Positions 18,203-24,186 of a stretch of DNA of 25,930 nt are shown here, piece by piece (position 1 is the stretch's first letter; every line of letters starts with the position of its first letter). The notes under the pieces were generated by a model. It searched no databases. It saw only the letters and a program-made list of their open reading frames with translations, and was not told where the DNA came from. This DNA is from a virus: positions 1 through 25,930 of IMG/VR virus record IMGVR_UViG_3300025151_000260; one strand, given 5' to 3'. A program made the translations under genes and the position numbers.

Positions 18203-18222
18203 GGCATAAATAATTTTATGCC
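18203..18222 (+). promoter_or_regulatory. late promoter box in a start-codon hairpin
   Basis: CATAAATA (18205-18212) ends 5 bases before the ATG at 18218. GGCATAA (18203-18209) and TTATGCC (18216-18222) form a perfect 7-bp stem with loop ATAATT, and the right arm contains the start codon. Confidence 0.6.
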
Positions 18223-18586
18223 TGCAGGCTACCTTTATATTATTTCTAACAAATCTTGGCCCGGATGGATAAAGATAGGGTCGACACGAAACCTCAAATC
18301 CAGACTTCAAACTTATCAAACAGCTTCCCCTAATAGAGACTATGAAATTTTATACTCTATTAAACACCCGCTCTACTTACAAGCTGAAAAAAATATTAAA
18401 AGGCAAATGAAATACTTTGCTAAGCAAATAAAAAACGAATGGTATGAAGTAGATCTAAATATTGCAAAAGTTCGTTTAGCAGAACAACTAGATAATTACT
18501 TTTATGGGGAGTGTGATATACAAGAACAATATCATAATAAACAAGTAGATCATGAGTTTGGATACGAATTACGTGTTGGTACTTAA
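18218..18586 (+). CDS. GIY-YIG-like endonuclease (T5orf172/MUG113-type)
   Basis: This 122-residue protein matches the small GIY-YIG-superfamily domain. It has AGYLYIISN (3-11), then WIKIGSTRNLKSRLQTYQT (18-36) with the conserved Lys/Gly/Arg, and later EWYEV (74-78) with the conserved Glu. Such domains cut DNA and often occur in homing endonucleases of phages. No separate DNA-binding region is visible beyond the C-terminal 40 residues. Its end overlaps an HNH endonuclease gene by 35 bases, so the two are a translationally linked pair. The target is unknown. Confidence 0.75.
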   Translation: MPAGYLYIISNKSWPGWIKIGSTRNLKSRLQTYQTASPNRDYEILYSIKHPLYLQAEKNIKRQMKYFAKQIKNEWYEVDLNIAKVRLAEQLDNYFYGECDIQEQYHNKQVDHEFGYELRVGT

Positions 18587-19151
18587 CAGCGGATGGGTAC
18601 CTATAGGAGTAAAAAGATTAAAAGAAGCCATTACAGCTGTATATGATAATACAGAATGGCAATTACTTCATATTGAAAAAATACAAGATGAACTATCTAT
18701 ACACCCTGTTTCATGGGAAGAGTGGCTACAATTAGAAGCCCCGGATCAATCTAATCATATAAAGACATTAAGAGGTAATATAAAAATACCTACTGTTATT
18801 ATTTCAAAAAATTATTCTAAAGTACATTTTCGAAAATTTAAACCAAACAAAACAGGTATATATGTAAGGGATAAAGGTACCTGTCAATACACAGGTAAAA
18901 AACTTACAAAAACAAATTGCAGTATTGATCATTTAATACCAAAATCTCGCGGTGGTACTAATACGTGGGACAATATGGTATTGTGTGATAAAACTATCAA
19001 CAATAAAAAAGGCTCAAAACTACCAGAAGAGTTTAATATTAAAGTAAAAAATAAACCAAAAGAGCCGCCGGTTGTACCAGCGGCTCAGTTAATTACTACT
19101 CGACATTCAGATTGGGAGTATTTTATTAATTACCAGTCTTTACATGCTTGA
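18552..19151 (+). CDS. HNH endonuclease
   Basis: This 199-residue protein has the N-terminal YVLVLNSGWVPIGVKRLKEA region (7-26) seen in many phage and bacterial HNH proteins. The nuclease core spans about 105-155 (VRDKGTCQYTGKKL, then DHLIPKSRGGTNTWDNMVLC). Asp126-His127 and Asn141 are the first HNH residues, and Asn151 closes the motif. The first zinc-type pair is incomplete (CQYT rather than CxxC), although Cys111, Cys123 and Cys145 remain. It overlaps the GIY-YIG gene by 35 bases and the convergent basic-protein gene by 22 bases. A homing or recombination role is likely but the site is unknown. Confidence 0.85.
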   Translation: MSLDTNYVLVLNSGWVPIGVKRLKEAITAVYDNTEWQLLHIEKIQDELSIHPVSWEEWLQLEAPDQSNHIKTLRGNIKIPTVIISKNYSKVHFRKFKPNKTGIYVRDKGTCQYTGKKLTKTNCSIDHLIPKSRGGTNTWDNMVLCDKTINNKKGSKLPEEFNIKVKNKPKEPPVVPAAQLITTRHSDWEYFINYQSLHA

Positions 19152-19687
19152 TAACGAGGTGTACCTGGTTTAGCAGAACTACATTTATGTCTAGCTCTAA
19201 AACTTTTCCTCCTTTTAGTGTTAGACTTACCCGATACTTTTACTCCTTTTTGACCCCAATGAATGCGTTTGTAGCCTCCGCCCCCAGGCTTTCTCACACA
19301 CTTCATCCATTTTTTACCTTTAGCAGTACTGCTTGCTTTTTTAGTAACCTTCGTGCATTTAGCGCTCTTTTCATTTAATTCATTTTCGCAATGATAATTT
19401 ATAAAACGTTGAGCGGCTTTTGCAGTATTGTTACTTTTGTTTTTTTGTTTAGATTTTATAGATCTCGCTTTAGAGCATGTTACTTTACCTTTGACCTGTC
19501 GCTTGAGTATACCTGGTCTTACAGGATCATGTACATCTTTTTCAGAAGCTATTTTTTTAGCTTGCTTTTTAAGGTTTTTTCTATACTCCGGGTCATTTTT
19601 CCAGGCACTTGAAGTCTTGCCTTTTTTCTTAGCTTTATTTATATTATCCCATAACCCTTCATATAAAGCGTTGAATCTAGGTGTCAT
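19130..19687 (-). CDS. highly basic Cys-containing phage protein
   Basis: This 185-residue protein is extremely rich in Lys and Arg and has six Cys, spread as VTCSKAR, YHCENE, KCTK, MKCVRK, HKCSSA and QACKDW. The start FNALYEGLWDNINKAKKKG and the end RRKSFRARHKC...GTPRYQACKDW resemble a small basic family seen in marine phages and large DNA viruses (DUF5872-type, from memory). The charge suggests nucleic acid binding, perhaps with zinc or disulphides. It could be a DNA-packaged or virion protein. It has its own late promoter 5 bases upstream. Its 3' end overlaps the HNH gene on the other strand by 22 bases. Confidence 0.65.
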   Translation of the reverse strand: MTPRFNALYEGLWDNINKAKKKGKTSSAWKNDPEYRKNLKKQAKKIASEKDVHDPVRPGILKRQVKGKVTCSKARSIKSKQKNKSNNTAKAAQRFINYHCENELNEKSAKCTKVTKKASSTAKGKKWMKCVRKPGGGGYKRIHWGQKGVKVSGKSNTKRRKSFRARHKCSSAKPGTPRYQACKDW

Positions 19688-19709: not shown

Positions 19710-19717
19710 AATAAATA
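19710..19717 (+). promoter_or_regulatory. late promoter box of the 19730-24186 operon
   Basis: AATAAATA (19710-19717) ends 12 bases before the ATG at 19730, a longer gap than at most other late genes here. It diverges from the late promoter at 19688-19700. No other clear late box lies inside the operon. Confidence 0.55.
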
Positions 19718-19729
19718 ATTAAACAATAT

Positions 19730-20368
19730 ATGAAAACCTCGAAGATATTAGATAGTTTATTAGAACAGTGTGATGCATGTAGTGGGGATGCGTATATTCC
19801 ACCTTCTACTAAAATTGCAAAGCACGATGACGCTAGTATGGCTATTAGCGATCTTAGTAATTTAATTGAAAATGCTCAGAAGTTACATGATATGATCCCT
19901 GAGGACTACCCATTAGAAGATTGGGCAGAAGCAAAAATTACAAAAGCTACAGATTATATTAATTCAGTACTCAAATATATTTCTTATGATGTAGAAGGTC
20001 AAGGAGAAGCTCCAACCGACAGTCCTGTTGCTATTTATATTTCTACGTCACCTAATATGATGAAAGAATCAGAAGATTATTATACAGATAAATTGCAATA
20101 TATTACTAATATCTCTTCGAAAATTCATGCTGTAGATATAGATGAAGAAACTGGTAGTATTGTATTAGAGTTTGAAACTAAAGACGGTTATGGTTATTAT
20201 ATTAAATATAATGCAAAGACTGAACAATATGAAGACATAACTATCTCTGAACCCGGTCAATCTAATTATAACAAAGAAATGTCTGAAGATGAGTTTATGC
20301 AAACAGAAATCGCATCTGAGGTTGACAACGAAGTAGATAATTTAAGCCAATACGTATATGAAGTTTAA
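19730..20368 (+). CDS. hypothetical acidic protein, first gene of putative ejected-protein operon
   Basis: This 212-residue protein is very acidic. Residues 35-90 look helical and carry PEDYPLEDWAEAKITKATDY, a pattern I recall from hypothetical proteins of T4-like marine phages. The second half is strand-rich (SKIHAVDIDEETGSIVLEFE). The N-terminus (MKTSKILDSLLEQCDA) has an L-x-E at residues 10-12, where the T4 gp21 protease could cut, but lacks the aromatic residues of the next genes, so its capsid-targeting status is doubtful. The end overlaps the next gene by 11 bases. The function is unknown. Confidence 0.65.
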   Translation: MKTSKILDSLLEQCDACSGDAYIPPSTKIAKHDDASMAISDLSNLIENAQKLHDMIPEDYPLEDWAEAKITKATDYINSVLKYISYDVEGQGEAPTDSPVAIYISTSPNMMKESEDYYTDKLQYITNISSKIHAVDIDEETGSIVLEFETKDGYGYYIKYNAKTEQYEDITISEPGQSNYNKEMSEDEFMQTEIASEVDNEVDNLSQYVYEV

Positions 20369-21218
20369 AAAATATTTTGAAGAAAGTAACTATTACAACG
20401 AAACTTTAAGTAATAAGTTTTGGGATAACTTTGAGTTTAAAGAAGATGTATTAAAACCTATACTTAAGATTGTAGATGACTTTGTAGCTGATGACGATCA
20501 CATTAATGCAGATATGATTGAAGACATCCAGCTTACAGGGTCGCTAGCTAACTATAATTATTCTGATCATTCCGATTTAGATGTACACATACTTTTAGAT
20601 TTTGCGGATATAAATAAAGATGAATCTATAGTTAAAAGGGCTTTAGATGGTAAGCGTTTTATTTGGAATCTAAAACACGATATTACTTTTAATGGACATG
20701 AAGTTGAGTTATATTTTCAAGATATTCACGAACCTCATGTGGCTTCCGGTTTATATAGTCTACAAGATAATAGATGGATTAAAAAGCCTAAATTCGAAGC
20801 CCCGGAGGTAGATCATGGTGATGTAGTTAAAAAGGCTGATGCTTTTAAAAAAGAGCTTGATCTTTTGAAGGAAGCAATGGATAATGCTTCTGATGAAAAG
20901 GAGTTTAGTCTCGTTAATAAGAGAGCGAAAAAATTAAAAGATAAGCTTATGAAAATGCGTAAGGATGGTCTAGCAAGTAAAGGAGAGTTTTCGATTGAAA
21001 ATCTCGCTTTCAAAACTTTGCGTAATAATGAAACTATTAGCCAATTGAATGATATTATTATAAAATCATATGATTATATGTTCGCTAAAGAAGATTTAAA
21101 CGAAAGAGCTGGTTTAGAAGATTGGGAAAAAGCTATGTTGAGTGCTTTAGGTACCAAGAATGATAAAAATGCTCAACACCAAAAAGAACAACCTAAACGA
21201 TACCCTATAGGAATATGA
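20358..21218 (+). CDS. Pol-beta-superfamily nucleotidyltransferase with capsid-targeting-like N-terminus
   Basis: This 286-residue protein has the nucleotidyltransferase signature LTGSLANYNYSDHSDLDVHI. Gly61-Ser62 is followed by the metal-binding Asp73 and Asp75, and HEVELYFQD (114-122) is placed for the third carboxylate. Such enzymes add nucleotides to RNA, small molecules or proteins; MNT toxins and antitoxins and tRNA nucleotidyltransferases belong here. The N-terminus (MKFKKYFEESNYYNE) resembles the cleaved capsid-targeting sequence of T4 internal proteins (MKTYQEFIAEA), with Glu at 8-9. Residues about 150-215 are a Lys-rich helical region. It overlaps the next gene by 4 bases. The substrate is unknown. 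Confidence 0.75.
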   Translation: MKFKKYFEESNYYNETLSNKFWDNFEFKEDVLKPILKIVDDFVADDDHINADMIEDIQLTGSLANYNYSDHSDLDVHILLDFADINKDESIVKRALDGKRFIWNLKHDITFNGHEVELYFQDIHEPHVASGLYSLQDNRWIKKPKFEAPEVDHGDVVKKADAFKKELDLLKEAMDNASDEKEFSLVNKRAKKLKDKLMKMRKDGLASKGEFSIENLAFKTLRNNETISQLNDIIIKSYDYMFAKEDLNERAGLEDWEKAMLSALGTKNDKNAQHQKEQPKRYPIGI

Positions 21219-21673
21219 AAAAATTTAAACAATTTTTTAATGAACAACAAGACGTAAAATGGCATTATACTCTTGTATCAGTTTCTGGAAGACATAGCGA
21301 ACGTCACATTATTGTAAAACCGTACGGTCATGTACCTGATGAAAAAGTACAATCATTAGTGAATTATATTCTAAAGGTTGTAGATGATCAAGGAGAAGCA
21401 GGTACTGGGGAGTATGATGACTTCAATGATATACCTGAAATGTCGGATATGTATAAAGACGTTGATATAGAAAAAGCTGTTGGAGAGTATCTAATTAGTC
21501 TCGATGAATTAATACTTGTAAAACACTTTCCAACTAAAAAACAACTTAAACCTGGTGATACCAATCTTGACCCTTCTGCAAAAAGCGCACTCTTTGCTCT
21601 TCAAGGTCAAGACGTCTCCTGGGGAGATATAGCTAAACAACGCGCAGATGACTTTAATAAGGACAGAATATGA
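21215..21673 (+). CDS. hypothetical protein with capsid-targeting-like N-terminus
   Basis: This 152-residue protein is not recognised by domain. It begins MKKFKQFFNEQQDV, the same Met-Lys-aromatic pattern ending in F-x-E at residues 8-10 as its neighbours. The rest has short strands (WHYTLVSVSGRHSERHIIVK) and an acidic middle (GTGEYDDFNDIPEMSD). It starts inside the previous gene (4-base overlap) with AGGA at 21209-21212, only 2 bases from the ATG, and overlaps the next gene by 4 bases. The signal-like start and operon position suggest a head-internal protein; its activity is unknown. Confidence 0.68.
   Translation: MKKFKQFFNEQQDVKWHYTLVSVSGRHSERHIIVKPYGHVPDEKVQSLVNYILKVVDDQGEAGTGEYDDFNDIPEMSDMYKDVDIEKAVGEYLISLDELILVKHFPTKKQLKPGDTNLDPSAKSALFALQGQDVSWGDIAKQRADDFNKDRI
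21659..21663 (+). promoter_or_regulatory. Shine-Dalgarno site
   Basis: AAGGA lies 6 bases before the ATG at 21670. It is one of few well-placed ribosome sites in the window and contrasts with genes that start right after late promoters. Confidence 0.6.
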
Positions 21674-22734
21674 AAACATTTAGACAATTTTTTAGAGAGA
21701 ATTATATTAAGTTTATAGACCCTGATACTGGTAAAGAAGTAAAGCACAGGGTTTCAGATGAATTTATTAACAGCATTATTAAGCGTAAGTCTGATAAGTT
21801 TGATTCTGCTTCTTATTTAAAAAAGATTAGAGACCATGGAGTTAGAACTGGTGCGTTTGAAAAAGGAGAAGATATTGACTCTAGAGACGTTGTCGCATTT
21901 TTTAATTTTATAAAAGATGCAGTACCTCGTAATCAATTACATAATTTTCTCAAAGAATTACCTCGGAAAGATTTACAAAAGCGGTTTAAAGAAGAATTAT
22001 CTAAATCTAAAATGTTTAGTTTTTTAGATGTTTTAGATACTACATGCGACCCATCATGTAGATTTGCTGACGCTTTAGCAAAACATCCGGTGGTTCTTAA
22101 AATAAGACCAGCGACAGATCGTTATGCAACTCGAGGAGCTGCTGGTCCGGGAGAAGCCTTTTTGGCTTTTATGTTTTCTGGTAAGAAACCATCAGGCGCT
22201 GGAGATTTAGAATTAGATGATATGATCGTTGAACTAAAAGCTAACGGTGGTAGAATCGCAAAAGATCTAGATTTTAGAGGCCAAGGTAAGTTACTTAAAA
22301 GTTTTTATCCAGGTATTAATAGCTCTTATAAAGATGCATTACCATTAATATTAAACCATTTCGATAATCGAGAAGACTTAACTATGTTAGATTTTCTTAC
22401 TGCAGTCTCAGGAGTAGCAGATGGTTTAGATGATATTGACATAAGATACTTTTCAAATAAGCCAATAACTTATTTAGAAAACTTTCCTACATATAGAGAA
22501 TTAGTACAGTTAATAGGTCCTATACAAATGAAAAATTATTTTACTAAAATAGCAGATTTTAATACTATCGCTATTTTTGATAAAGATAAAATAATCGGCT
22601 TTAACAGAGATGTATTACAGAGAAAAAATTCTGAGCAAATTCAAAAAGAGTTTACTAGAGAAGGTGTTATTATAAAGCCTAAGTCTGTTAAAAATAGTGC
22701 TTATGATGCAGCTGGTTTTACCATTAACGTATAG
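21670..22734 (+). CDS. putative PD-(D/E)XK nuclease with capsid-targeting-like N-terminus
   Basis: This 354-residue protein begins MKTFRQFFREN, close to the T4 capsid-targeting consensus, with F-x-E at 8-10. Residues 158-196 show a PD-(D/E)XK-type arrangement: AAGPGEAFLAFMF with Glu162, GDLELDD with Asp179, then VELKANGGRI with Glu188 and Lys190. This is the usual E...D...ExK spacing of endonucleases of this fold. The second half (200-354) is helical with no known domain and could bind DNA or a partner. If packaged and co-injected it would reach the host cytoplasm with the phage genome. It overlaps the previous gene by 4 bases and has a good Shine-Dalgarno site. The nuclease call is a motif reading, not proven. 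Confidence 0.65.
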   Translation: MKTFRQFFRENYIKFIDPDTGKEVKHRVSDEFINSIIKRKSDKFDSASYLKKIRDHGVRTGAFEKGEDIDSRDVVAFFNFIKDAVPRNQLHNFLKELPRKDLQKRFKEELSKSKMFSFLDVLDTTCDPSCRFADALAKHPVVLKIRPATDRYATRGAAGPGEAFLAFMFSGKKPSGAGDLELDDMIVELKANGGRIAKDLDFRGQGKLLKSFYPGINSSYKDALPLILNHFDNREDLTMLDFLTAVSGVADGLDDIDIRYFSNKPITYLENFPTYRELVQLIGPIQMKNYFTKIADFNTIAIFDKDKIIGFNRDVLQRKNSEQIQKEFTREGVIIKPKSVKNSAYDAAGFTINV

Positions 22735-22742
22735 AGAATTAT

Positions 22743-22949
22743 ATGATTACTAAAGTAATGGGTTATAAGGTTGATGTAGAACCTAATCGTGTTTTTATAT
22801 ACGACCATACTGGTGATATATGTAGCGAAGATATACCAAATTCTATAGTTAGCTATCTTATAGAAGAAGGTTTTTGTGATGAATGGATAACGAAAAGTTC
22901 TCCTATAAAAGTAAATATATATAAGAAAAAAAGTAATGATAAACTATAA
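22743..22949 (+). CDS. hypothetical small protein without targeting sequence
   Basis: This 68-residue protein is not recognised. It looks like a small alpha/beta domain (VMGYKVDVEPNRVFIYDHTG, then an acidic helix IPNSIVSYLIEEGFCDEW) with a Lys-rich end. It lacks the Met-Lys-aromatic start of the surrounding genes, so it may stay in the producing cell. It follows the nuclease-like gene by 8 bases and overlaps the ligase-like gene by 14 bases. An inhibitor of a neighbouring enzyme is one possibility suggested only by position. Confidence 0.58.
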   Translation: MITKVMGYKVDVEPNRVFIYDHTGDICSEDIPNSIVSYLIEEGFCDEWITKSSPIKVNIYKKKSNDKL

Positions 22950-24186
22950 AAAATATTTCTTGTTATTTGAAGGTGTTGCTGATACAGTTAATAAACATTT
23001 AACCCATCTCGAAGAACTAATACTTACAAATAAAAAGGAAGGAGCCGAGAGAGCGATAAACTATCTTACTTCTATGGCTCAAGTACTCGACAGTGATACC
23101 CCTAAGTCTGTCAATACAAATATTAAATATGATGGTGCCCCTGCTGTTGTAGTTGGTAAAGACCCTAACGGTAACTTTTTTGTCGGTAGTAAGTCTGTTT
23201 TTAATGCAACACCGAAAATAAATTACAGTATTGAAGATATTAAAAAGAACCACAGCCAAGCACCCGGGTTAGTCGATAAGCTTGTTCAAACGTTTGTACA
23301 CTTAAAAGACTCAAACATTGATAGCGTTTATCAGGGAGACTTTTTATTTGATCAAGAGATAAAAGAAACAAATACTATTGATGGGGAAGAGCATGTTATT
23401 TTTAAACCTAATACAATTGTATATGCTATACCTACAGATAGTGAAGAAGGTCAAAAAGTATTAAATGCAGAAGTAGGTATTGTTTTTCATACTGAGTATA
23501 ATGTAGAGTTAGATGAGAACAATGTGCCTAGATTTGAAACTAAAAAGTTTGGTGTAGATGTTCGTAATTTTAAAGTAAGTCCAAAAGTATATGTCAAAGA
23601 TGCAGACTTTGAAAGTGATGCAGGTTATATAACTTTAACTAACGAAGAGTCAGAAAAGATTGCTGATGTAATCAATACATCAAAAGAAATGATTCAGCAG
23701 ATTAATTTTGAAGATGTACCTGATAATATATTTACAAGTTTAAACACATATATTAATACTGAAATAAGACAAGGAGAGTTTTTAGCTAAGCCTGATGTAT
23801 CCTACCAGCAATATATAGAATGGTTTACATCTAAATTAGATAAAAAAATTGAGAGTTATAAAACAGAAAAAGGTAAAGCTAAAGCTAACGAAGCAAAACA
23901 AGCATTGTTATCTATGCTCTCTTCTCAAAAAGATAATATATTAAAAATATTCAATTTACAAATACAAATTAAACAAGGCAAAGATATATTCATTGAAAAA
24001 TGGAATAATATTATGAGAGAAGTTCAACTTAAACATTACTTGTTTAATGATGATGGAGATTTAATTCCTACCAACCCCGAGGGTTATGTTGCAGTAGATA
24101 TAACTGGCAATGCTATAAAGTTTGTTGATAGATTAGAGTTTAGTAGAGCAAACTTTTCTATTGATAAATCTAAAAAATTTAAATAG
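22936..24186 (+). CDS. ligase/nucleotidyltransferase-like protein (KxDG motif) with capsid-targeting-like N-terminus
   Basis: This 416-residue protein carries NIKYDGAPAVVVGKDPNGNF (62-81). Lys64-Tyr-Asp66-Gly67 fits motif I (KxDG) of ATP-dependent DNA/RNA ligases, where the Lys is adenylylated. FFVGSKS (81-87), VYQGDFLFD (131-139, like motif III) and AEVGIVFHTEY (178-188, like motif IV) follow in the expected order. I recall similar phage proteins with KWDGAPA, of uncertain function. The region about 300-345 is a Lys-rich coiled coil. The N-terminus (MINYKKYFLLFEGV) has L-F-E at 10-12, a good T4 gp21-type cut site. It ends the operon. A nucleic-acid ligase or a relative that has lost activity are both possible. 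Confidence 0.65.
   Translation: MINYKKYFLLFEGVADTVNKHLTHLEELILTNKKEGAERAINYLTSMAQVLDSDTPKSVNTNIKYDGAPAVVVGKDPNGNFFVGSKSVFNATPKINYSIEDIKKNHSQAPGLVDKLVQTFVHLKDSNIDSVYQGDFLFDQEIKETNTIDGEEHVIFKPNTIVYAIPTDSEEGQKVLNAEVGIVFHTEYNVELDENNVPRFETKKFGVDVRNFKVSPKVYVKDADFESDAGYITLTNEESEKIADVINTSKEMIQQINFEDVPDNIFTSLNTYINTEIRQGEFLAKPDVSYQQYIEWFTSKLDKKIESYKTEKGKAKANEAKQALLSMLSSQKDNILKIFNLQIQIKQGKDIFIEKWNNIMREVQLKHYLFNDDGDLIPTNPEGYVAVDITGNAIKFVDRLEFSRANFSIDKSKKFK

Follow-up and report, generated by a model that had tools for sequence, protein, structure and literature searches.

Why should neighbouring genes with unrelated products begin with nearly the same few codons? The question is raised by a 25.9-kb fragment of an uncultured virus (IMG/VR record IMGVR_UViG_3300025151_000260, positions 1 to 25,930; this whole stretch is called the window hereafter), in which four genes of one operon start with a short leader resembling the capsid-targeting sequence (CTS) of bacteriophage T4 internal proteins. 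Here we explore this operon and its relatives, and we consider T4-type internal head proteins with enzyme-like bodies to be the probable products of the four genes. The window virus is of the T4-like marine myovirus type, with a gp5-like hub, a ribonucleotide reductase, a Clp-like protease and a DUF6267 protein. The four open reading frames (ORFs) and N-termini described in a prior sequence-only reading were all recovered at their positions, as follows.

20358..21218, + strand: 286-aa Pol-beta-like nucleotidyltransferase, leader MKFKKYFEES; phrog_36119, invariant GS..SDLDVH
20358..20384, + strand: capsid-targeting-like leader of the nucleotidyltransferase
21215..21673, + strand: 152-aa protein, leader MKKFKQFFNE
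21215..21244, + strand: leader of the 152-aa protein
21670..22734, + strand: 354-aa putative restriction-type nuclease (the slot gene), leader MKTFRQFFRE; motif G-x-GE ... GD-x8-ELK
21670..21699, + strand: leader of the slot gene
22936..24186, + strand: 416-aa DUF6267 protein (PF19782), KxDG ligase-like, leader MINYKKYFLLFE
22936..22971, + strand: leader of the DUF6267 protein, predicted cut L-F-E/G

All four genes show an aromatic residue at positions 4 and 7, a hydrophobic residue at 8 and a Glu at 8-12, the pattern being displaced by one residue in MKFKKYFEES. The strict pattern, M-x1-3-[FY]-x2-[FY]-hydrophobic-x0-3-E, was encountered at three of 1930 internal Met codons from T4, HTVC008M, the 127-kb relative G001 and the window; under this internal-Met null, four or more strict matches among the 29 window genes have P = 1.3e-7. 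A fifth strict window match (314-1165, MAFSFNTFVED) is probably due to chance, since a relative has MAFSFNNFVKN and hence no Glu. When a slightly wider pattern was applied to more loci, it matched at 210 of 1279 gene starts, as against 26 of 5951 internal Met codons, a figure inflated by selection because the loci had been fetched using these same genes. A less biased DNA scan of IMG/VR with the query MKT[FY]K[QE][FY]-hydrophobic-x-E yielded at least 89 matches in at least 80 loci, and 86 of the 89 matches listed begin an ORF of at least 60 aa or run off the contig. A permuted-leader control gave six stretches from one protein family, all at least 200 codons inside an open frame and none at a gene start. 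Chance as the origin of the leader was rejected on the internal-Met null together with this control.

T4 itself served as a control for the same pattern, which recovered IPII/IPIII (MKTYQEFIAE), Alt (MELITELFDE), gp24 (MAKINELLRE), gp2 (MAIFQIINES) and few others; IPI has MKTFKEF at its start. Ten N-terminal residues of T4 IPIII are reported to be sufficient for packaging, its residues 4 and 7 matter in targeting and residues 8 and 10 in processing, and the protease gp21 cleaves after L/I-x-E (PMC9026906). The resemblance to T4 internal proteins proposed in the sequence-only reading held: the leaders match the IPIII CTS at 4 and 7 as well as at 8 and 10, and they share spacing and these residues with IPI, IPII, IPIII and Alt. 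Unrelated bodies behind one leader, a polymorphic locus, gp21 (in relatives) and a late promoter core are further likenesses. gp21 (PF03420) was identified in G001 (E 9.2e-31) and in eight of nine other leader-bearing records above 100 kb, and shorter leader-bearing records mostly lack it, as is expected of fragments. Targeting of the four leader-bearing proteins of the window to the prohead is highly probable, and their injection with the DNA, though less secure, is likely.

The bodies behind the leader differ widely. The slot, defined as the gene following the nucleotidyltransferase, varies between relatives while its neighbours keep about 60-79% identity. At least eight mutually diverged or unrelated groups occupy it (window/L002/L003; L005-type; L014-type; L007/L020; L008/L015; L031a; L032a/L013; L004/L021), nearly all behind MKTFKQFF-x-E, some of them connected only weakly in BLAST, around a G-x-GE / GD-x-E-x-K core, and others unlinked. 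Mean pairwise identity in the slot alignment is 82% for leader columns 1-8, 22% for the rest of the N-terminal part, 43% for the core and 22% for the remainder. Among 76 distinct IMG/VR N-termini of DUF6267 proteins, 63 keep the leader spacing and 55 of these also the Glu, with consensus MxSFKQYLTEA. In 53 anchored DUF6267 leaders, where F/Y at 4 and Y/F at 7 are fixed by the anchor itself, position 8 is L in 30, F in 12 and I in 6, position 9 is T in 24, position 10 is E in 32 and position 11 is A in 16, which gives L-T-E/A, in agreement with the gp21 rule; L-T-E or I-T-E is the ending of most DUF6267 leaders other than that of the window. The DUF6267 leader is present in phages Melnitz and C48C1 and in a short form in HTVC008M, and the protein of cyanophages S-PM2 and S-MbCM7 begins at the domain, leaderless. 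The 85 tagged (leader-bearing) proteins among the scan matches listed fell into 49 unrelated body families, 44 of which are singletons. The slot occupants, the DUF6267 proteins with and without leader and the 49 families listed indicate that the leader is an exchangeable module which can be combined with unrelated bodies.

In G001 and in Melnitz the strict leader is restricted to few genes. Of 143 called genes in G001 it occurs in strict form on four, all at 118.5-122.3 kb: the nucleotidyltransferase, the slot gene, DUF6267 and a small minus-strand gene. In the complete Methylophilales phage Melnitz (221 annotated genes) four genes have the strict leader (RimK-like ATP-grasp protein, gene 15, DUF6267, CTP-transferase), and gene 17 and a zeta-like kinase are among the looser matches. 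Four tagged genes form a run in each of two further loci, L162 (2357-3910) and L191 (6505-9422). Elsewhere the leader precedes an adenylate kinase (PF00406, E 1e-38), zeta-like kinases, CTP-transferases, an HNH protein, an ART-PolyVal domain (E 1e-23) and an S-adenosylmethionine (SAM) lyase (PF23780, E 2e-17; leader MKTFKEFLDESS), the last accounting for 12 of the 85 listed proteins (L169 and 11 loci among L142-L221). Some of these, namely adenylate kinase, CTP-transferase and the zeta-like kinases, could be cytoplasmic nucleotide enzymes, and the N-terminus could then be another address or interaction tag, for instance for a replication or transcription complex, on enzymes that stay in the cytoplasm of the infected cell; the tagless functioning of cyanophage DUF6267 also suits this idea. 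We regard it as very improbable, given the near-identity to the genetically mapped T4 CTS and the co-occurrence with gp21. Furthermore, the leader was looked for on the DNA polymerase, RecA, helicase, clamp and ribonucleotide reductase of Melnitz and is not present, and the tag is absent from these proteins in the same genomes as the tagged enzymes; a leader on many clearly cytoplasmic proteins, the counter-sign named in the sequence-only reading, was not seen on the replication proteins of either G001 or Melnitz.

Several observations weigh against reading the four genes as processed, injected head proteins with enzymatic bodies. The window is a fragment without gp21. Only the DUF6267 leader, ending L-F-E, fits L/I-x-E; the other three end F/Y-x-E, and this F or Y at P3 sets them apart from T4 internal proteins. 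In G001, gp23 carries CLKE/A and the scaffold has 15 L/I-x-E versus 3 F/Y-x-E sites, both suggesting a protease of L/I-x-E specificity. Cutting of window-type leaders is less sure than their targeting, because they mostly have F at P3 while G001 gp23 has CLKE/A. Melnitz gp23 carries FLSE/AAPT, in agreement with the Melnitz leaders (LSE/A, IIE/A). By these motifs the chances that gp21 would cut all four proteins are evenly balanced, and cleavage of the three with F/Y-x-E ends is uncertain. In addition, several DUF6267 leaders (MFSFKGFITTEK and others) keep residues 4 and 7 without a well-placed Glu, DUF6267 can work without a leader, as seen from the cyanophage members that lack it, and in eight relatives the leader motif of the nucleotidyltransferase is internal, behind a small fused domain. 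In these eight (L004, L007, L022-L025, L029 and L031) the fused domain is basic, being either KLKRCVKKVQKQG...AYAICSKS or DUF3008-like, and a cut at the internal motif would free two proteins.

Leaders lacking Glu also suit an alternative in which the leader targets the prohead core, and the proteins act in the producing cell as assembly factors, either core or scaffold helpers or enzymes processing DNA ends in the head. T4 gp24 and gp21, which bear such N-termini, do function in assembly (PMC9026906). Nevertheless, the bodies are enzyme-like and swap rapidly, a tagged SAM lyase, ART or other enzyme is implausible as a scaffold, and T4 Ip1-3 are injected (PMC12373910), so that we consider assembly factors unlikely. 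A last point concerns the DNA. The slot leader is similar between phages at the DNA level too, and ATGA overlaps occur between genes; both would fit shared N-termini that arose by chance, or from overlapping starts and recombination at conserved DNA, with a functionless peptide. Recombination at the leader may indeed help to maintain it in the slot, since the leader DNA itself is similar. However, slot codons 4 and 7 vary between TTT and TAT only, i.e. among aromatics, codon 8 is invariant and codon 6 is free; the pattern is also found at unlinked, non-overlapping genes with at least 49 body families, the permuted control gives no gene start and the window P is about 1e-7. A functionless peptide is, hence, scarcely credible, and the internal head protein reading is retained below.

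The bodies themselves were scrutinized for family, motif and fold. The nucleotidyltransferase matches phrog_36119 (E 3.8e-37), a PHROG family without assigned function, and scores E 0.088 and 13.7 bits against PF01909, below the 21-bit cut-off, for which reason it is labelled Pol-beta-like and not a Pfam member. Its GS...DxD active-site motif, TGSLANYNYSDHSDLDVHI, is present as had been claimed, and core residues G61, S62, D73 and D75 are invariant in the alignment. The 152-aa protein has no family match in Pfam or PHROG and no match in a direct search of phage records. It is about 88% identical in L020, L031 and L032, with flanking genes at 64-69%, which may reflect recent exchange or strong constraint; it is absent from many relatives.

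For the slot protein a PD-(D/E)XK-like nuclease had been proposed. The window protein has G-x-GE and GD-x8-ELK, and G159, E162, L165, G178 and D179 are invariant, some relatives having E-x-G instead of E-x-K. Neither Pfam, PHROG nor a direct phage-record search gave a match, and Foldseek gave none with E < 0.5. This fold test has little power and the nuclease call is at motif level, because the AlphaFold model has a predicted local distance difference test (pLDDT) score of only 61.5. A PDB profile search with the slot nuclease and DUF6267 returned coiled-coil or unrelated matches only. On its motif, a restriction-type nuclease is nonetheless a rather probable identity for the slot protein.

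The DUF6267 protein is a clear family member (PF19782 E 5.8e-87, 292.9 bits versus a cut-off of 27; phrog_455 E 2.6e-77), and DUF6267 was matched in 465 phage records, although no paper or described function was found in the literature searched. In a scan of viral contigs the single protein gave 0 matches and an alignment query 590. The family is that of cyanophages, pelagiphages and methylophages; the window member carries a leader, which the cyanophage members lack. The claimed ligase-like KxDG motif is there, with K64, D66 and G67 invariant in 32 homologues, and fold support is weak. The predicted structure has a pLDDT of 80.9, low mainly at residues 1-21 and a few short loops (leader about 31). 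Its best PDB fold matches are tRNA/RNA ligases, only at E 0.2 and probability 0.41, another result that counts against enzymatic bodies; in a viral structure library its own family, including CTP-transferase fusions, is followed by RNA ligases (E 4e-3, 4e-2). The slot nuclease model, used as an informal control, retrieved no ligases. DUF6267 thus resembles RNA/tRNA ligases and covalent nucleotidyltransferases (Trl1, Naegleria RNA ligase, phage RNA ligases) in the invariant KxDG and weakly in fold, whereas a significant sequence or fold score is lacking and other motifs can be recognised only in part. Motif and weak fold support together make a ligase-like protein fairly probable.

The remaining features in and near the unit are the following.

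19711..19717, + strand: ATAAATA, T4-type late promoter core, directly 5' of the unit's first gene
19730..20368, + strand: 212-aa ORF, first gene of the unit, leader-like start MKTSKILDSLLEQ
22743..22949, + strand: 68-aa conserved ORF, leaderless, between the slot gene and the DUF6267 gene
19130..19687, - strand: 185-aa very basic Cys-containing protein, pI 10.5, start MTPRFNALYEGLW, loose leader match MTPRFNALYEG

Counting the window and its relatives together, 16 of 18 units have ATAAATA within 45 nt 5' of their first gene, versus 2% of random 45-mers of the window; these correspond to about five independent cases, since many of those relatives are near-identical. The position of the core is consistent with late expression of the unit. 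A scan of the whole window for TATAAATA with up to one mismatch gave 171 sites versus 137 expected and is uninformative alone. There is little room between the genes: those for the 152-aa protein and the slot protein both begin within the preceding gene's stop, and the DUF6267 gene overlaps the 68-aa ORF, which is found at the same position in 20 relatives at about 38-49% identity. The start of the 212-aa ORF is a weak, loose leader match comparable to T4 Alt or gp24; its relatives begin MQTTQKLDGYLNE, and no family was matched in Pfam or PHROG. The 185-aa basic protein, a possible further internal protein by its sequence, has a RKSFRARHKC-type C-terminus, and its relatives begin MTPEFDKLYEG (L003) and MNNTFDTLYEN (L031). 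Beyond it, a small protein at 18218-18586, MPAGYLYIISNKSWPGWIKIGST, has by eye the look of a GIY-YIG/T5orf172-type domain and adjoins an HNH gene at 18552-19151.

Among tagged proteins of other loci, the L161 group makes up 23 of the 85 listed, with about 190 aa and MKTFKEYLSESKKTYSFKVKIAG (e.g. L143, L165, L193). The member tested had no Pfam or PHROG match, ATAAATA often stands a few bases before the start, and the group is perhaps an abundant internal protein. Locus L106 (7180-9921) encodes a tagged 913-aa fusion of a zeta-like kinase and a CTP-transferase-like domain. N-termini such as MKKFGNYIKE, MLKYNSFIKE and MIKKYGQFLNE were seen in L027, L030, L053 and L054, which are large-genome phages outside the T4-like marine group; a prohead protease was not found in the two fragments checked. 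No paper describing the leader outside T-even phages was found in the literature searched, which is not proof that none exists.

From the leader, its modularity, the match to T4, the late-promoter core and gp21 in relatives, all supported by the sequences, we infer loading, cutting, injection, activities and purpose along the following lines. During late assembly an N-terminal CTS of 10-18 residues would take each protein into the core of the prohead, where a gp21-type protease would cut at least some of them after the Glu. The mature bodies would remain in the head and enter the host with the DNA. They are probable nucleic-acid enzymes (a Pol-beta-like nucleotidyltransferase, a hypervariable restriction-type nuclease and the KxDG ligase-like DUF6267, plus a small protein), and nucleic acid of the host or of invaders would most likely be their target in the first minutes of infection. 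Attack or counter-defence might be the task of the nuclease, which changes fast, and the repair of RNA or DNA ends perhaps that of the ligase-like enzyme and the nucleotidyltransferase.

SAM lyases are anti-restriction enzymes, and the tagged one, if injected, would degrade SAM in that role. T4 Ip1-3, small proteins that have only the leader in common, are injected inhibitors of GmrSD enzymes (PMC12373910). A counter-defence role draws its main support from the tagged SAM lyase and ART elsewhere and, by analogy, from these T4 inhibitors; whether the purpose is counter-defence or take-over at all we hold to be an even question. The window differs from T4, with its small internal proteins at separate loci, in having an operon with probable enzyme bodies and one slot with a fast-changing nuclease. 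The idea of enzyme mixtures delivered with DNA is shared with the polyvalent proteins of phages and plasmids (PMC5512222), and ART-PolyVal and a zeta kinase and CTP-transferase fusion are also found behind the leader. Polyvalent proteins, however, combine several domains in one chain, whereas the operon has single-domain proteins from separate genes, each tagged. More tentatively, and with rather less confidence than an even chance, the leader could be a general delivery tag of environmental T4-like phages for enzymes of dozens of unrelated kinds (among them SAM lyase, ADP-ribosyltransferase, kinases, CTP-transferases and the ligase-like DUF6267), the slot encoding a fast-diversifying injected restriction-type nuclease directed against resident DNA or used as counter-defence.

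T-even phages already provide examples of CTS-tagged polymorphic internal proteins; what is new is the enzyme cargo, its grouping in an operon and the spread. Very few proteins that T4-like phages inject besides DNA are known, nearly all from phages of E. coli. Since the leader can be read from sequence, candidates for injection can be listed throughout uncultured phages, and DUF6267 is assigned a likely place of action. The SAM lyase and the hypervariable nuclease, both predicted to be packaged, are candidate counter-defence or attack proteins of the first minute.

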